Assembly (NCBI RefSeq): GCF_007874125.1
Contig: NZ_CP040128.1
Span: 1,798,001-1,862,000, forward strand
Direction of reading: 5' to 3'
DNA: 64,000 nt
Source: Noviherbaspirillum sp. UKPF54
GTDB lineage: Bacteria; Pseudomonadota; Gammaproteobacteria; Burkholderiales; Burkholderiaceae_D
Shown: one piece after another, positions 19,035 to 25,019 of the stretch
How the letters are laid out: each line of letters starts with the position of its first letter
Position numbering within the stretch: the first letter of the stretch is position 1
Program-made: the position numbers and the translations under genes
Notes under the pieces: generated by a model
What the model saw: only the letters and a program-made list of their open reading frames with translations
Databases searched by the model: none
Told to the model about the DNA's origin: nothing

Positions 19035-20030
19035 CTACGGCACCGGCGGCGCGTCCCTGAGTTTTTCCCAGGGCGAAGTGATGCGCCATTGCGCGATCCA
19101 GTCGGCCGGCAGCACCAGACTCAGGGCACCGACATCGGCCACCAGCGGGCCAAGCGCAGCCGGCACCAGCTTCACGTCCTGAGTGAGGGCGGGCAGATGG
19201 CTGGCGATTTCCTGCTCCACCACGGGCGCCAGCCACTCGCCGTGATGCTGCCAGACCGTGCCGCCGATGACGAAGACGCGCGTGTCAAGCGTCGCGACGA
19301 TGTTGTACAGCGCACGCCCGAACCACCGCGCCGCTTCGAACACGGCCGCGCGCGAGGCCTCGTCGCCATCGCGCGCGGCAGCAAACAGCTTCGATGCGCT
19401 CGTGTGCAGGCGAGCGCCTATGTTACGTCCCGATGTGAGCGATTCGACATCGCCGCGATTGCCGCAGCCGCACAGCGTATCGCGTTCGCTCACCAGCATG
19501 TGGCCGGCGTGACCGGCGTTGCCGTTCTTGCCATTCAGGATATGGCCGTCGACACACAGGCCGAATCCGATGCCGGTGCTCCAGGTGACGTAGGCGCAGT
19601 CGGGTTCGTCGATGACGGCGCCGAAGGTGCGCTCCGCGATCAGCGCACCGACGCAGTCGTTTTCCAGCCGCACATGGTCGAAATGCTCGCGCAGCACATG
19701 TTCCAGCGGGATCGCGGTCCAGTCATTGGGCAAATCGGAGCCCGCCGTGAGCCCGCCGCAGATGTTCGGCGTAGACAGGCTGGTCAGGCCGTCGGCGCGC
19801 ACGAACGGGCCGCAGGAACTCACGCCCAGCTCGCGCACCGCCGTCAGTTCGACGCCAGCCATGCGGCATGCCTGTTCCAGCAAGGCGATCGCCTGTTCCG
19901 GCAAGGCGCGCTCGGTCCCGGACTTGACCGTCGGCTGTACGACCCGGGCAAGCGGCCCGTCGTTATTGCAAACCATGGCGGCAATCTTGGTGCCGCCGAT
20001 ATCGATGGCGCCGATGTAGCGGGTTTCCAT
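19035..20030 (-). CDS. ROK-family sugar kinase with altered zinc site
   Basis: A 331-aa cytosolic kinase. It has the N-terminal phosphate loop AIDIGGTKIA (8-17), the catalytic Asp125 in LENDCVG, and WSTGIGFGLCVDG. The ROK zinc motif is normally C-x-C-G-x-x-G-C; here it reads C187-G-C-G-N-R-G-D194, so the last Cys is replaced by Asp, while the upstream His (GHAGHM) is kept. It lies 21 bp downstream of the GH15 gene. A glucokinase that captures the glucose released there is the likely role (inference); fructokinase is the alternative. Confidence 0.87.
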   Translation of the reverse strand: METRYIGAIDIGGTKIAAMVCNNDGPLARVVQPTVKSGTERALPEQAIALLEQACRMAGVELTAVRELGVSSCGPFVRADGLTSLSTPNICGGLTAGSDLPNDWTAIPLEHVLREHFDHVRLENDCVGALIAERTFGAVIDEPDCAYVTWSTGIGFGLCVDGHILNGKNGNAGHAGHMLVSERDTLCGCGNRGDVESLTSGRNIGARLHTSASKLFAAARDGDEASRAAVFEAARWFGRALYNIVATLDTRVFVIGGTVWQHHGEWLAPVVEQEIASHLPALTQDVKLVPAALGPLVADVGALSLVLPADWIAQWRITSPWEKLRDAPPVP

Positions 20031-20051
20031 AATAGAACTCTTCTCGTTTCG

Positions 20052-21839
20052 TCAATACGCCTTGTCCCACGGGATGCTGAGCCGCGCCGCGCAATGGATC
20101 AGTCCCACCATGCTGTATGTCTGCGGAAAATTGCCCCACAGCTCGCCGCTGTCCGTTGCCACGTCTTCCGACAGCAGGCCGAGGTGGTTGCATCTGGAAA
20201 GGACATTGGCGAACAATTCGCGCGCGCGCTCCTTGCGCCCGATCTGCGCCAGCGCCAGTATCCACCACATGGTGCACACCAGGAATGCCGTTTCGGGACG
20301 CCCGAAATCGTCTTCCTCGTCATAACGCAGCATGAAGTCGCCGCGCCGCAGATGCCGTTCGGCGGCTTCGACGGTGGCGACGAAACGCTCGTCGCGCGGG
20401 TCGAGGAACTGGAACTCGGCCATCAGCAGCAGGCTCGCGTCGAGCTTGTCGCCTCCGAAGGTCGAGACAAAGCTGCCGAGCTGCGCATTCCATGCGCGCT
20501 CGCAGATTTCGCGGTGTATTTTCCCGGCGTGCTCGCTCCAGAGCCTTTCTCGCTCCGGCAAGCCGAGCTTGCGCGCGATGATGGCCAGGCGGTGGCAGGC
20601 GGCCCAGCACATGATGCTGGAAAAAGTGTGCACCCGGGTCGCGCGGCGCAGCTCCCACAGCCCGGCGTCAGGCACGTTGTACTGGCGCACCGCCTGCTCG
20701 CCGAGCCGCTCCAGGTCGTTGAACATCTGGCGCCCGGCGGGCCGGTCCAGCCGGGTGTCGAAAAAGGCATGGGTGCTAGCCAGCACTGCCGCGCCGAAGA
20801 CATCGTTTTGCACCTGGAAATACGCCAGGTTACCGACCCGCACGGGCCCCATGCCGCGATAGCCGGCCAGTGCCGGCGCGATCCGCTCGTCGAGCACCGC
20901 CTCGCGCCGGATGCCGTATACCGGCTGCAACGGCCGGTCGCGGGTGTCGGCGATGATGTTCAGGATGTAATCGAGGTAGTGCTCCATGGTGCCGGTGGCG
21001 CCCAGGCTATTGAGCGCGTTGACCACGAAATAAGCGTCGCGCAGCCAGCAGTAGCGGTAATCCCAGTTGCGTCCGCTGCCCGGTGCTTCCGGGATCGAGG
21101 TGGTCACGGCGGCGACGATGGCGCCGGTGTCGTCGTACGCATTGAGCTTGAGCGTGATCGCCGCGCGGATCACCACCTCCTGCCATTCGAAAGGAATGGC
21201 GAGATTGCGCACCCACTGGTGCCAATATGCCTGGGTCTTTTCGTAGAATGTGCGCCCGACTTCGTGCGGGGCGCCATCCACCGTTTCGTCCGGCCCCATG
21301 AGCAGCGTCACGCTGTCGTGCAGGAAGAAAGGCCGCTCGTCGAGCACCGACGACACCGAGGCATCGGTGGTCAGCCGCATCGGCTGCGACATGCCGTGGT
21401 AGGAAATATGGTGCGCGCCGCAGCGCACTTCGGCGCGCGCGCTACCGTAATTCAGCGCCGGGCGCACGCGCAGCGCCACGCGCGGACGCCCCGCGACACG
21501 CCGCACCACCCGCACCAGCATCGCCGGCGCAAACATGCGGCCATGCAGGTAGAAGCGCGGCGCAAAATCGATCACCTCGATGCCGTTGCCGGCCACATCG
21601 CGAAAGCGCGTGATCAGGATCGCGGAATTGCGTTCGTAAAACTGCTCGGACTCGGCGCAGCCATCGAGTTCCACGTCGATCTGGCCAAAGCCGGCATCCT
21701 GCGCATCCGACTGCAGCAGCGAACAGCATATCGGGTCGCAGTCCAGGCAGGGATAGCACCACCAGACGATCGATGCGCGGCGATCCACCAGCGCGCAGGT
21801 GCGTGCATTACCGATAAGCCCAAGGTCAAGAGTTTTCAT
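20052..21839 (-). CDS. Glycoside hydrolase family 15 (glucoamylase/trehalase)
   Basis: A 595-aa protein. It has the bacterial GH15 N-terminal beta-sandwich domain (residues about 1-210) and an (alpha/alpha)6 barrel with the acid-site signature GRNWDYRYCWLRDAYF. Near the C-terminus is the base-site region SGELWGNFPQTYSMVGLIHCA. No signal peptide is present, so it acts in the cytosol. The start at 21839 (MKTLDLGLIGNARTCAL) fits the family; the frame is open 34 codons further. Next to otsAB, trehalase activity is more plausible than starch hydrolysis, but the motifs do not separate the two. Confidence 0.9.
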   Translation of the reverse strand: MKTLDLGLIGNARTCALVDRRASIVWWCYPCLDCDPICCSLLQSDAQDAGFGQIDVELDGCAESEQFYERNSAILITRFRDVAGNGIEVIDFAPRFYLHGRMFAPAMLVRVVRRVAGRPRVALRVRPALNYGSARAEVRCGAHHISYHGMSQPMRLTTDASVSSVLDERPFFLHDSVTLLMGPDETVDGAPHEVGRTFYEKTQAYWHQWVRNLAIPFEWQEVVIRAAITLKLNAYDDTGAIVAAVTTSIPEAPGSGRNWDYRYCWLRDAYFVVNALNSLGATGTMEHYLDYILNIIADTRDRPLQPVYGIRREAVLDERIAPALAGYRGMGPVRVGNLAYFQVQNDVFGAAVLASTHAFFDTRLDRPAGRQMFNDLERLGEQAVRQYNVPDAGLWELRRATRVHTFSSIMCWAACHRLAIIARKLGLPERERLWSEHAGKIHREICERAWNAQLGSFVSTFGGDKLDASLLLMAEFQFLDPRDERFVATVEAAERHLRRGDFMLRYDEEDDFGRPETAFLVCTMWWILALAQIGRKERARELFANVLSRCNHLGLLSEDVATDSGELWGNFPQTYSMVGLIHCAARLSIPWDKAY

Positions 21840-21937
21840 GCGCAATCGTTTGCCGGCAACGGCAAATTCAGGATACTCCAAATCGGTGTGGCCCGCGAGG
21901 TTCGACCGACTGCCGGTACGCCATGCCCCGCCGCAAA

Positions 21938-22738
21938 TCACGCAGCGCCGGCGATTTCTCCCCGCGTCCGGCTGGGCGCGCCCGCGCGTCGTAGGCGCTG
22001 CACCAGATCATCCAGCAAGGGCGCGACGTCTTCCAGTTGCGGCAGAAAAAATTCGGCCGCGCTGCGCGCCGCGTACTCAATGCGGATCGCCAAGATCGTG
22101 TGGCGCGGCAGGCGGAACACGTCCTCGTCAGTCACGTCGTCGCCGGCATACAGCGCACGCGGCGCTCCGGTCATGCTCATCAACTGCCTTAGCGCATCTC
22201 CCTTGTGCGCCGCGTCCGGCGGCACCAGGTTGAACACATGCTTGCCCGCCACTACGCGCGGCGCAGGCACGAGTTGCTCGAACAGCTCGTCCAGCCTGCG
22301 TGCCGCCTGCGGCTCCCGCGCATGACGATAATGCAGCGACAGCGAATAACGCTTGTCTTCCATCACGATGCCGGGATCTCCCATGGCGCGCAAGGCCGGC
22401 TCCAGTTGCGCGCGCCATTGAGCGCACAGCGCCCGGTGGCGCGCCGCGTTGGTTTCCCAGCCCGGTACGCCTTCCAGCCCATGATTGCCAATAATAAAAT
22501 CCGGCTCAAACCCGAGCCGGTCGCGGATATCGTCCACCGAACGGCCTGTAATGATGGCGATCGGCGCAAACTCCGCCAGCGCCGCTAGCCGCTGACGGAT
22601 GCCTGCCGGCAGCCGCGCCTGGTCCGGGTGCGGCACGATCGGCGCCAGCGTGCCGTCGAAATCGAACGCGCACAGCAGGCCCGGCCTGACATATTCATCG
22701 AGGCGTCTTCGCCCCTTCTCCGAGTGCAGCGCCATCAT
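21938..22738 (-). CDS. otsB: Trehalose-6-phosphate phosphatase
   Basis: A 266-aa HAD-superfamily phosphatase that converts trehalose 6-phosphate to trehalose. The catalytic aspartates are in FDFDGTLAPIV (residues about 25-35). Motif II is IIITGRSVDDI, and the metal site is ALYAGDDVTDEDVF. It starts (ATG-ATG) one base after the otsA stop codon, so the pair is translationally coupled. Length is normal for the family. Confidence 0.96.
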   Translation of the reverse strand: MMALHSEKGRRRLDEYVRPGLLCAFDFDGTLAPIVPHPDQARLPAGIRQRLAALAEFAPIAIITGRSVDDIRDRLGFEPDFIIGNHGLEGVPGWETNAARHRALCAQWRAQLEPALRAMGDPGIVMEDKRYSLSLHYRHAREPQAARRLDELFEQLVPAPRVVAGKHVFNLVPPDAAHKGDALRQLMSMTGAPRALYAGDDVTDEDVFRLPRHTILAIRIEYAARSAAEFFLPQLEDVAPLLDDLVQRLRRAGAPSRTRGEIAGAA

Positions 22739-22739
22739 G

Positions 22740-25019
22740 TCACACCACCCGCCGCAGCGGCTTGCGGCTGTGCGCCCGGATCTTGGTCATGATGCGCTCG
22801 CGCTGGCGCAGGCGCGCGGCATCGAGCAGCATGCGTCCGGCCCAGCGGTAGATATTGAAATCCTTGACCAGCGAGCGCATGCTGCGCATCCGTTCGCGCT
22901 GCTCCACTTCCGGCATGGTCAGGGCGCGGTACAGAGCGTCGGCGCCCTGTTCGATGTGATACGGATTGACGATCAGCGCCTCGTGCAGTTCCCGCGCCGC
23001 ACCGGTGAACTGCGACAGCACGAGCACGCCGCGTTCGTCGTCGCGCGCGGCGATGAATTCCTTGGCGACCAGGTTCATGCCGTCATGCAGGCTGGTGACC
23101 AGGCAAACGTCTGCCGCACGGTAATAGCGATTGACGGACTCGGCGTCGTGATGTTCGGCCTTCAGGATGATGGGCTGATAATTTCCGTTGGAGTAACGAT
23201 TGTTGATGCGTTGTACCAAGGCGCGCACGCGCGCGTCGAAGTTCTGGTACTCGTCCAGCGAGGAACGGCTGGGAGCGGCGATCTGGATCATGGTGAAGCG
23301 CCCGACCAGGTTCGGATGCAGCTCCAGCATGCGCTCCACCGCCTGGAAGCGCTCGATGATGCCCTTGGTATAGTCGAGCCGGTCGACGCCGATGCCCAGC
23401 AGATGGTCGGCCGGCATGCCATGCTCTTCGCGCACCGATGCCCGGCACTCCGCCACGCCCGGCTTGTCGCCATTGCCGTTTTCCGGCCAGGCGATCGAGA
23501 TCGGATAATGCTCGACCTGGGTCAGCTTGCCGCCATAGGAAATGGTCGAGGCTTCGTGTTCGATGCGTGTTTCGAGATACCTATCCACGGTTTCGATGAA
23601 GTTCTTGCAATGGAATTGCGTGTGGAAGCCGAGGATGGTGCTGCCGAGCAGTCCTTCCAGGATTTCCTCGCGCCACGGGCAGATGCCGAAGGATTCCGGA
23701 TTCGGCCACGGAATATGCCAGAAGGTGATGATGGTCGCCTTCGGCAGCACGTTGCGCACCATGCGCGGCAGCAGCGCAAAATGGTAATCCTGCACCAGCA
23801 CCACCGGGTCGTCGGTGCGCGCTTCCTTGATGACCGCATCGGCGAAGCGCTGGTTGACCGCGACATACTGGTCCCAGTCGGAGGAGCGGAACACCGGACG
23901 CACGTGCGCAATATGACACAACGGCCACAGCCCCTCGTTGGCGAAGCCGTAGTAATAACCCTGCTCTTCCTCCTTGGTCAGCCAGACGCGGCGCAGCGTG
24001 TAGGACGGATTGGCCGGCGGCACAGGCACGCGGTCGAAGCGGTCCACCACGTCTCGGTCGGCCGAGCCGCTGCCGTGCGCGATCCAGGTGCCGGAACAGG
24101 CGCGCATGACCGGCTCGACCGCCGTGACCAGTCCGCTTGCCGGACGCTGCACCTCGATTCCCTTGCGCGTGCGCATGTGCAGGTAGGGTTCGCGGTTGGA
24201 CACCACCAGCACCTCGTCGCCGGCCAGTTCCTCGTGCAGGAGCGTACGCAGCTTTTCCGGCGTCCACAAATGGGTGACGTCATCGCGCGTCCTGCGCTCG
24301 AGGCTGAACTCGTGCAGCAGCATGCGCAAGTCGCCTTCCAGCGGCAGCACCTCGGGCGGAGTCGACTGCTGCTGCGGCCGTGGCCCGATTTCGCCGCGCA
24401 GTATTCCCTTCATCGATGCTATCCAGTTGCGCCACGACAGGTGGGCGATGAACACCGTCACCAGCGAGATCAGCAGCGTGAGCACGGCGAACAGCGTGAT
24501 CACATAATGCTTGGTGTCGGCGCTGCGGCGCTCGATAAAGCTCATGTCGTGCGCCAGGACCAGGGTCCCGAGAAAACGTCCTTCGTTTTCCAGCGGGCTG
24601 ACCGAAACATGCAGCGCGCCTTCGGGCAGCCGTATCAGCGACTGTCGCTTGCCGTCGGTCTCCATTTTCACGTTGCAGCCGAGCGACTTGGGATAGGTGG
24701 AGGTCTTGTACAGCAGCTTGCCATCGGCATCGCAAAAGGCGATCGCATACAGCCGCTCGTCGCGCATCGCGCGGTCGAACAGCTGTGTGATTTTCTTCTC
24801 GGCACCGGCCGGCACATATTCCTGCAGTGGGTCCTGCAGCGCGTTGGCCAGGGATTGCGAACGGGTATCGAGGTCCCGCACGAACCAGCGCAGGGTAAGG
24901 TCATCGACCAGCGGGACGACGACATAGGCGGAAACGCCCAATACCAGGGCAAGCGGCAATACAAACCGCAACGAGAGACGAAGAAGCCGTGAATGCATGG
25001 TTGATTTCCGATAATTCAT
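22740..25019 (-). CDS. otsA: Trehalose-6-phosphate synthase fused to an N-terminal membrane sensor-like module
   Basis: A 759-aa protein, about 270 residues longer than ordinary OtsA. The C-terminal part (about 268-750) is a GT20 synthase making trehalose 6-phosphate from UDP-glucose and glucose 6-phosphate; it has [39 protein letters not shown] and [12 protein letters not shown]. The N-terminal part has TM1 (about 18-38), an extracytoplasmic Cache-like domain (39-170, with [16 protein letters not shown]), TM2 (171-193), then a HAMP-like connector. The enzyme is therefore predicted to be membrane-anchored and possibly gated from the periplasm. The start is 25019 or Met8 (24998). Confidence 0.93.

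Follow-up and report, generated by a model that had tools for sequence, protein, structure and literature searches.

A trehalose-6-phosphate synthase with a receptor-like membrane module in Noviherbaspirillum sp. UKPF54

Gene expression, the supply of substrates and effectors in the cytoplasm are the controls usually described for trehalose synthesis by OtsA. A gene of Noviherbaspirillum sp. UKPF54 raises the question of whether the synthesis might also be set by a signal from outside the cell, as its product carries the layout of a membrane receptor in front of an OtsA domain of the GT20 family. The gene lies in a stretch of 64,000 nucleotides (contig NZ_CP040128.1, positions 1,798,001 to 1,862,000), which is referred to as the window and numbered from its first letter. 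A preliminary description, made from the sequence alone, had recognized a receptor layout with a sugar synthase as output, and this is borne out: a first transmembrane helix (TM1), a periplasmic domain, a second transmembrane helix (TM2), a linker and the GT20 domain follow each other, and the part upstream of GT20 is conserved. The N-terminal extension is about 260 residues long, close to the roughly 270 given at first. The protein is probably, though far from certainly, a one-protein receptor-synthase, in which a periplasmic Cache domain would tune OtsA allosterically.

An open frame of 759 codons spans positions 22740 to 25019 of the minus strand; no strand had been named in the preliminary description. 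Since homologues begin with MRLSLRF and close relatives are around 750 amino acids long, the second ATG, at 24998, is the likelier start, and residues are numbered according to the resulting protein of 752 amino acids. Its nearest named relative, from Noviherbaspirillum autotrophicum, shares 96% identity. The fusion is the sole GT20 match in the 4.72-Mb genome, and the homologues listed for it are named simply trehalose-6-phosphate synthase in the databases. The gene and its parts are the following:

22740..24998, minus strand: receptor-OtsA fusion gene, 752 amino acids
24906..24962, minus strand: TM1 (about residues 13-31), from hydropathy, within a long predicted helix (2-64)
24510..24905, minus strand: sCache/PDC-like periplasmic domain (residues 32-163)
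24732..24734, minus strand: codon of Cys89, the first invariant periplasmic cysteine
24675..24677, minus strand: codon of Cys108, the second invariant periplasmic cysteine
24447..24503, minus strand: TM2 (about residues 166-184), from hydropathy, within a predicted helix (153-201)
24267..24446, minus strand: cytoplasmic helix-loop-helix linker (residues 185-244), HAMP-like in layout only
24225..24266, minus strand: Trp-helix (W245 to L258; predicted helix 247-257), leading straight into the first GT20 strand
22821..24215, minus strand: GT20 (OtsA) domain (residues 262-726; Pfam 3.8e-122; Foldseek match to 5jio, 5.1e-39)

The catalytic domain scores 408.8 bits against Pfam GT20, for which the curated cut-off is 32.5 (residues 269-733 of the 759-residue frame). 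Eleven active-site positions of Escherichia coli OtsA were checked, and all eleven are identical in the window protein and in 12 other members of its clade. They are R9, G22, Y76, W85, D130, H154, R262, K267, R300, D361 and E369 in mature numbering, which we take to be the donor and acceptor residues. The acceptor contacts given for M. thermoresistibile OtsA, in the part of the source available, match this list in part (PMC6879718). The score against the NCBIfam OtsA equivalog TIGR02400 is 419.5 bits and misses the cut-off of 564.85, which points to a divergent GT20 subfamily; none of the NCBIfam equivalog cut-offs is reached by the synthase. Identity between the clade and ordinary OtsA is at most 38% over matches of more than 350 residues, with short pieces reaching 44%. 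A C-terminal trehalose phosphatase is not part of the chain, as the match to PRK14501, the bifunctional TPS-TPP, ends at profile position 473 of 729. The tryptophan at gene position 42 of the E. coli enzyme, close to the acceptor site, corresponds to His308 (24075-24077) in ten forms with two transmembrane helices and to tyrosine in three forms with a single one; residue 308 is a possible specificity marker.

Two membrane helices had been predicted in the preliminary description, and hydrophobic segments are indeed found at about residues 13-31 and 166-184. The predicted topology places residues 32-163 in the periplasm, and the predicted fold of residues 34-164 is that of an sCache/PDC domain like those of WalK, CitA, DcuS and CusS: a long N-terminal helix extends from TM1, an antiparallel sheet follows and the last strand leads into TM2. 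The 16-residue motif singled out at first corresponds to residues 84-99 and lies on the first two strands of this domain. In sequence searches, CHASE4 reaches 18.2 bits on the window protein (cut-off 26.2) and matches 6 of 69 members at E<=0.1 (best 0.0027), dCache_3 matches one of the 69 (0.022) and TIGR01386 has a sequence match in 26 of the 69 N-termini. A search of the PDB with the N-terminal profile gave two matches only, at E values of 0.61 and 2.2. The Pfam family Adeno_E3B matched 31 of the 69 members; it overlies TM2 (window residues 165-199) and was taken as a hydrophobic-helix artefact. In some members (for example P0322 and P0345), the periplasmic domain is interrupted by a Pro/Ala-rich insertion that is several tens of residues long.

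How widely the fusion occurs was addressed by a contig scan of genomes, from which the best 80 of 576 loci (L060-L139), all matched through the periplasmic part, were kept. All 80, mostly from metagenome-assembled genomes, carry the fusion, and none is a homologue that starts near residue 250 with nothing conserved upstream. The survey thus places the fusion in Burkholderiales, Rhodocyclaceae, Geobacteraceae, Desulfuromonadaceae, Smithellaceae, Bdellovibrionota, Nitrospira, Acidobacteria, Gemmatimonadetes (Gemmatimonadota) and others. Matches were found in 48 of 300 genomes of the order, and 21 genomes, including the one studied here, encode a full-length fusion; one of these 21 (G039) also has an ordinary OtsA. 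At the level of the phylum, 124 of 398 genomes gave a match, comprising 4 full-length fusions (again counting our own), 9 forms with one transmembrane helix and, for the remainder, other GT20 proteins or weak matches. An ordinary OtsA stands alongside in one fusion genome (G406) and in one genome with a one-helix form (G556) of this survey, which also gave two weak N-terminal matches (G433 and G467). N. massiliense (P0058, P0106) and N. cavernae (P0065, P0094) have two receptor-synthase entries each, apparently paralogues.

For conservation, 104 proteins with two transmembrane helices were compared, namely the window protein, the 80 named ones and 23 from the genome surveys. Hydropathy finds TM2 in all 104 and TM1 in 100; in the remaining four, TM1 appears when the frame is read from further upstream than the chosen start. 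W38, D42, R46, C89, C108, R158 and W245 are invariant, and the periplasmic domain of every fusion contains exactly two cysteines, at the same positions. Median identity of the 103 other fusions to the window protein is 65% for residues 9-31 with TM1, 42% for the periplasmic part, 46% for TM2, 35% for the linker, 59% for the Trp-helix and 70% for GT20. The ratio of nonsynonymous to synonymous substitution rates (dN/dS) in six pairs is 0.24-0.37 for the periplasmic part and 0.08-0.16 for GT20, values that are rough, with many dS near or above 1. Judged by these comparisons, the periplasmic part is under purifying selection, and the two-helix architecture, common to the 104 collected homologues and with dN/dS well below 1 in its periplasmic part, is not a product of chance.

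The two halves of the protein also appear to have travelled together. Pairwise identities of the N-terminus and GT20 correlate at 0.79, compared with 0.68 for one half of GT20 and the other, as would fit a single fusion whose parts were not separated again. When the N-terminal profile was run over the 300 genomes of the order, with at most 8 candidates scored per genome, 22 matched: the same 21 fusions and one weak partial match in a 965-residue frame (L199; G273 C50:4761-5180; 5.4e-5). The module therefore looks dedicated to the synthase, at least in this order. The module was also sought on other outputs, in a length-limited search of shorter proteins that scored 7998 candidates and gave 225 matches to the N-terminal profile; where the 120 matches listed have a name or a Pfam label, it indicates the same synthase (five sequences were inspected). 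One protein with the N-terminal module and a starch-binding module (P0360), on a contig of 1,485 bases, was set aside as a probable chimera.

Three genes follow the synthase gene on the same strand:

21938..22738, minus strand: otsB, trehalose-6-phosphate phosphatase (PF02358, 4.3e-26; TIGR00685 over its cut-off), beginning 1 nucleotide after the synthase stop
20052..21839, minus strand: GH15 trehalase-like hydrolase (PF00723, 1.5e-47; TREH_N, 6.5e-11)
19035..20030, minus strand: ROK-family sugar kinase, perhaps glucokinase-like (PF00480, 4.2e-40)

The otsB gene is the sole PF02358 match in the genome. The GH15 gene probably starts at MKTLDLG, within a frame open from 21941; its product stays below the NCBIfam TreH1 cut-off, and the ROK kinase reaches no NCBIfam cut-off. 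Together with otsA, these genes (19035-22738) could form a trehalose-glucose cycle. An otsB gene is found near 66 of the 80 loci, mostly just downstream of the fusion and upstream in two only (L067 and L103), and a GH15 gene near 52 of the 80, where it may be upstream, downstream or divergent. The GT20 domain is predicted to make trehalose 6-phosphate (T6P), an activity to which the otsB and GH15 neighbours lend support. The GGDEF-EAL gene upstream was considered as a partner and discarded: it has a match near 8 of the 80 loci, with 64-65% identity only in the two Noviherbaspirillum loci L060 and L061, and was taken as synteny within the genus. A plus-strand frame of 797 amino acids (22599-24992) was taken as a shadow of the GC-rich synthase gene. 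Between 19000 and 29000, no Rfam element reached its gathering threshold. Promoter and terminator scans upstream of the synthase were near chance, with 2 of each where shuffled sequence gave 0.9 on average, and both promoter-like sites are on the strand opposite to the gene. Elsewhere on contig 1, three very long frames (1,930, 1,753 and 1,663 amino acids; at about 2405662-2408028, 2507350-2509161 and 4023530-4025065 of the genome) contain arrays of many HAMP domains.

If the protein is a receptor-synthase, it would be a homodimer in the inner membrane with its sCache/PDC sensor in the periplasm, probably clamped by a disulfide between Cys89 and Cys108. A periplasmic cue would alter the sensor, and the change would pass through TM2 and the helix-loop-helix linker to the Trp-helix. 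This helix is predicted to run directly into strand 1 of GT20; the SNR motif of that strand contains R269, the putative counterpart of the arginine that contacts glucose 6-phosphate. A push or twist from TM2 could thereby bias closure of the active site, and the balance between open and closed states would set the rate of T6P synthesis. The active site of M. thermoresistibile OtsA closes on glucose 6-phosphate, with shifts of helix 1 and a loop that reach ~12 Å, according to the available part of the report (PMC6879718). OtsB would turn the T6P into trehalose, and the GH15 enzyme and the ROK kinase could return trehalose to glucose 6-phosphate. Osmolarity or a sugar had been named as candidate signals; nothing points to either, and the most conserved features are the cysteine pair and the juxtamembrane W, D and R. 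The same fusion occurs in bacteria of many kinds, which suggests that sugar synthesis may be under the direct control of a cue from outside the cell. It is tempting to go further and to imagine, as a tentative extension, a class of receptors with a primary-metabolism glycosyltransferase as output, in which a Cys-clamped Cache domain sets T6P without a kinase, a second messenger or transcription, and in which T6P may signal inside the cell while TreS and TreY make the bulk of the trehalose.

Several observations weigh against coupling between sensor and enzyme. The Cache-like domain claimed at the outset stands as a predicted fold; however, no Pfam Cache or CHASE model exceeds its cut-off in the 69 members. 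The linker, described as HAMP-like, keeps the helix-loop-helix layout (helix 153-201, a loop with a low-confidence stretch at 200-214, helix 215-242), but Pfam HAMP, the usual transmitter, is found at E<=0.1 in 0 of 69 members, and none of the 64 HAMP matches in the genome falls within the synthase gene. A profile built from 27 of the genome's HAMP domains and compared with the linker using hhalign scored 15.2 in the expected register, but with a probability of 5%, so that the similarity is marginal; 20 column shuffles gave 5.3-14.5, five other protein stretches 8.1-13.9 and an alignment of one half of the HAMP set with the other half 110. Model confidence is low in the linker loop, the structure model is a single chain, the linker is less conserved than TM1, the periplasmic part, TM2 and GT20, and dN/dS is some two to four times as high in the sensor as in GT20. 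Genes for TreS and TreY lie elsewhere in the genome, near 1.07 Mb, so OtsA is not the sole trehalose route and the fusion need not be the main one.

Relatives without the sensor weigh on the same side. In nine genomes of one family (L035-L043), the same GT20 subfamily has a single transmembrane helix and lacks the periplasmic domain; for one of the nine (L039), close relatives bear the name Mesorhizobium. W245 is retained in 6 one-helix forms of alignment A2, as it is in all 104 fusions. In the tree, the one-helix forms nest beside two-helix forms of the same phylum, in a class other than that of the window (99/98), which looks like loss of the sensor with survival of the anchor. Soluble members of the clade (L023 and L024) occur in two genomes of the family to which the window belongs; they branch below the membrane forms (99/99), as fits a single gain of the module. 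Conservation of the upstream part holds for the 80 named loci, but given the one-helix and soluble relatives, the enzyme itself requires neither the sensor nor the anchor. These natural variants are the strongest evidence against an essential sensor and the best argument for a membrane tether. On this view, the main role of the N-terminus would be to anchor the synthase at the inner membrane, close to OtsB, to glucose uptake or to a partner in the envelope; the Cache domain would have a structural role or bind a periplasmic partner, and no ligand would tune activity. This reading is somewhat doubtful but deserves consideration, and the stretch with TM1 being the best conserved of the N-terminus also speaks for it. 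A bare anchor, however, would not keep a sensor fold of 130 residues with two invariant cysteines under purifying selection.

The cysteine pair could alternatively be a redox switch or a metal site, so that output would follow periplasmic oxidation or metal load. Such an envelope redox or metal sensor, which is unlikely, overlaps with the receptor-synthase and names its cue in place of osmolarity or sugar, but WalK, CitA and DcuS match the sensor fold as well, and a single conserved periplasmic cysteine pair is more often a structural disulfide. Still less probable is a decayed sensor, in which the periplasmic domain would have lost its sensing function and the enzyme would be constitutive: one lineage does keep the enzyme without the sensor and the linker is poorly conserved, but the invariant positions of all 104 fusions and the dN/dS well below 1 argue against decay. 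That GT20 makes another product, for example a different phospho-sugar osmolyte, is the least credible alternative, as the distance of the clade from ordinary OtsA, the change at residue 308 and the missed equivalog cut-offs are countered by the conserved donor and acceptor residues and by the frequent otsB and GH15 neighbours.

The receptor-synthase combines traits of two known groups of proteins. With the OtsA enzymes of E. coli (1gz5) and M. thermoresistibile (5jio), it shares the GT-B fold, the active-site residues and the otsB neighbour, but their chains of about 460-490 amino acids lack the ~260 residues with two transmembrane helices and a periplasmic domain that come first here. Like the sCache/PDC histidine kinases WalK, CitA, DcuS and CusS, it has TM1, a PDC-like periplasmic domain, TM2 and cytoplasmic helices; unlike them, it has no kinase, cyclase, GGDEF or methyl-accepting chemotaxis protein output, Pfam HAMP is not detected and the output is a metabolic glycosyltransferase. 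OtsA of Arthrobacter A3 has likewise been tied to osmotic signalling, as an osmotic stress sensor with reported T6P-promoted self-assembly and an effect on cell shape, whereas no receptor domain is described in the part of that report available (PMC5685639). In Ramlibacter tataouinensis, genes for a GH15 trehalase, OtsB and OtsA lie side by side (Rta_36480-36500), and the available portion of the description, on which this comparison is based, makes no mention of a membrane or sensor part of the synthase (PMC3164672). Three Ramlibacter-labelled loci (L102, L127 and L136) carry the fusion. Searches of the open-access literature found no description of the fusion among the papers listed, while one in a subscription journal is possible; the receptor-bearing synthase is thus an OtsA variant that we have not found described.

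The committed enzyme of trehalose synthesis is here joined to a receptor-like module of its own, which is conserved in several phyla. The forms with a two-helix sensor, with a one-helix anchor and without any membrane part constitute a natural series, which makes the coupling directly testable. Should sensor and synthase really be coupled, the level of a compatible solute could be set very quickly by stress at the cell surface, and a biosynthetic enzyme would be added to the outputs known for Cache receptors.
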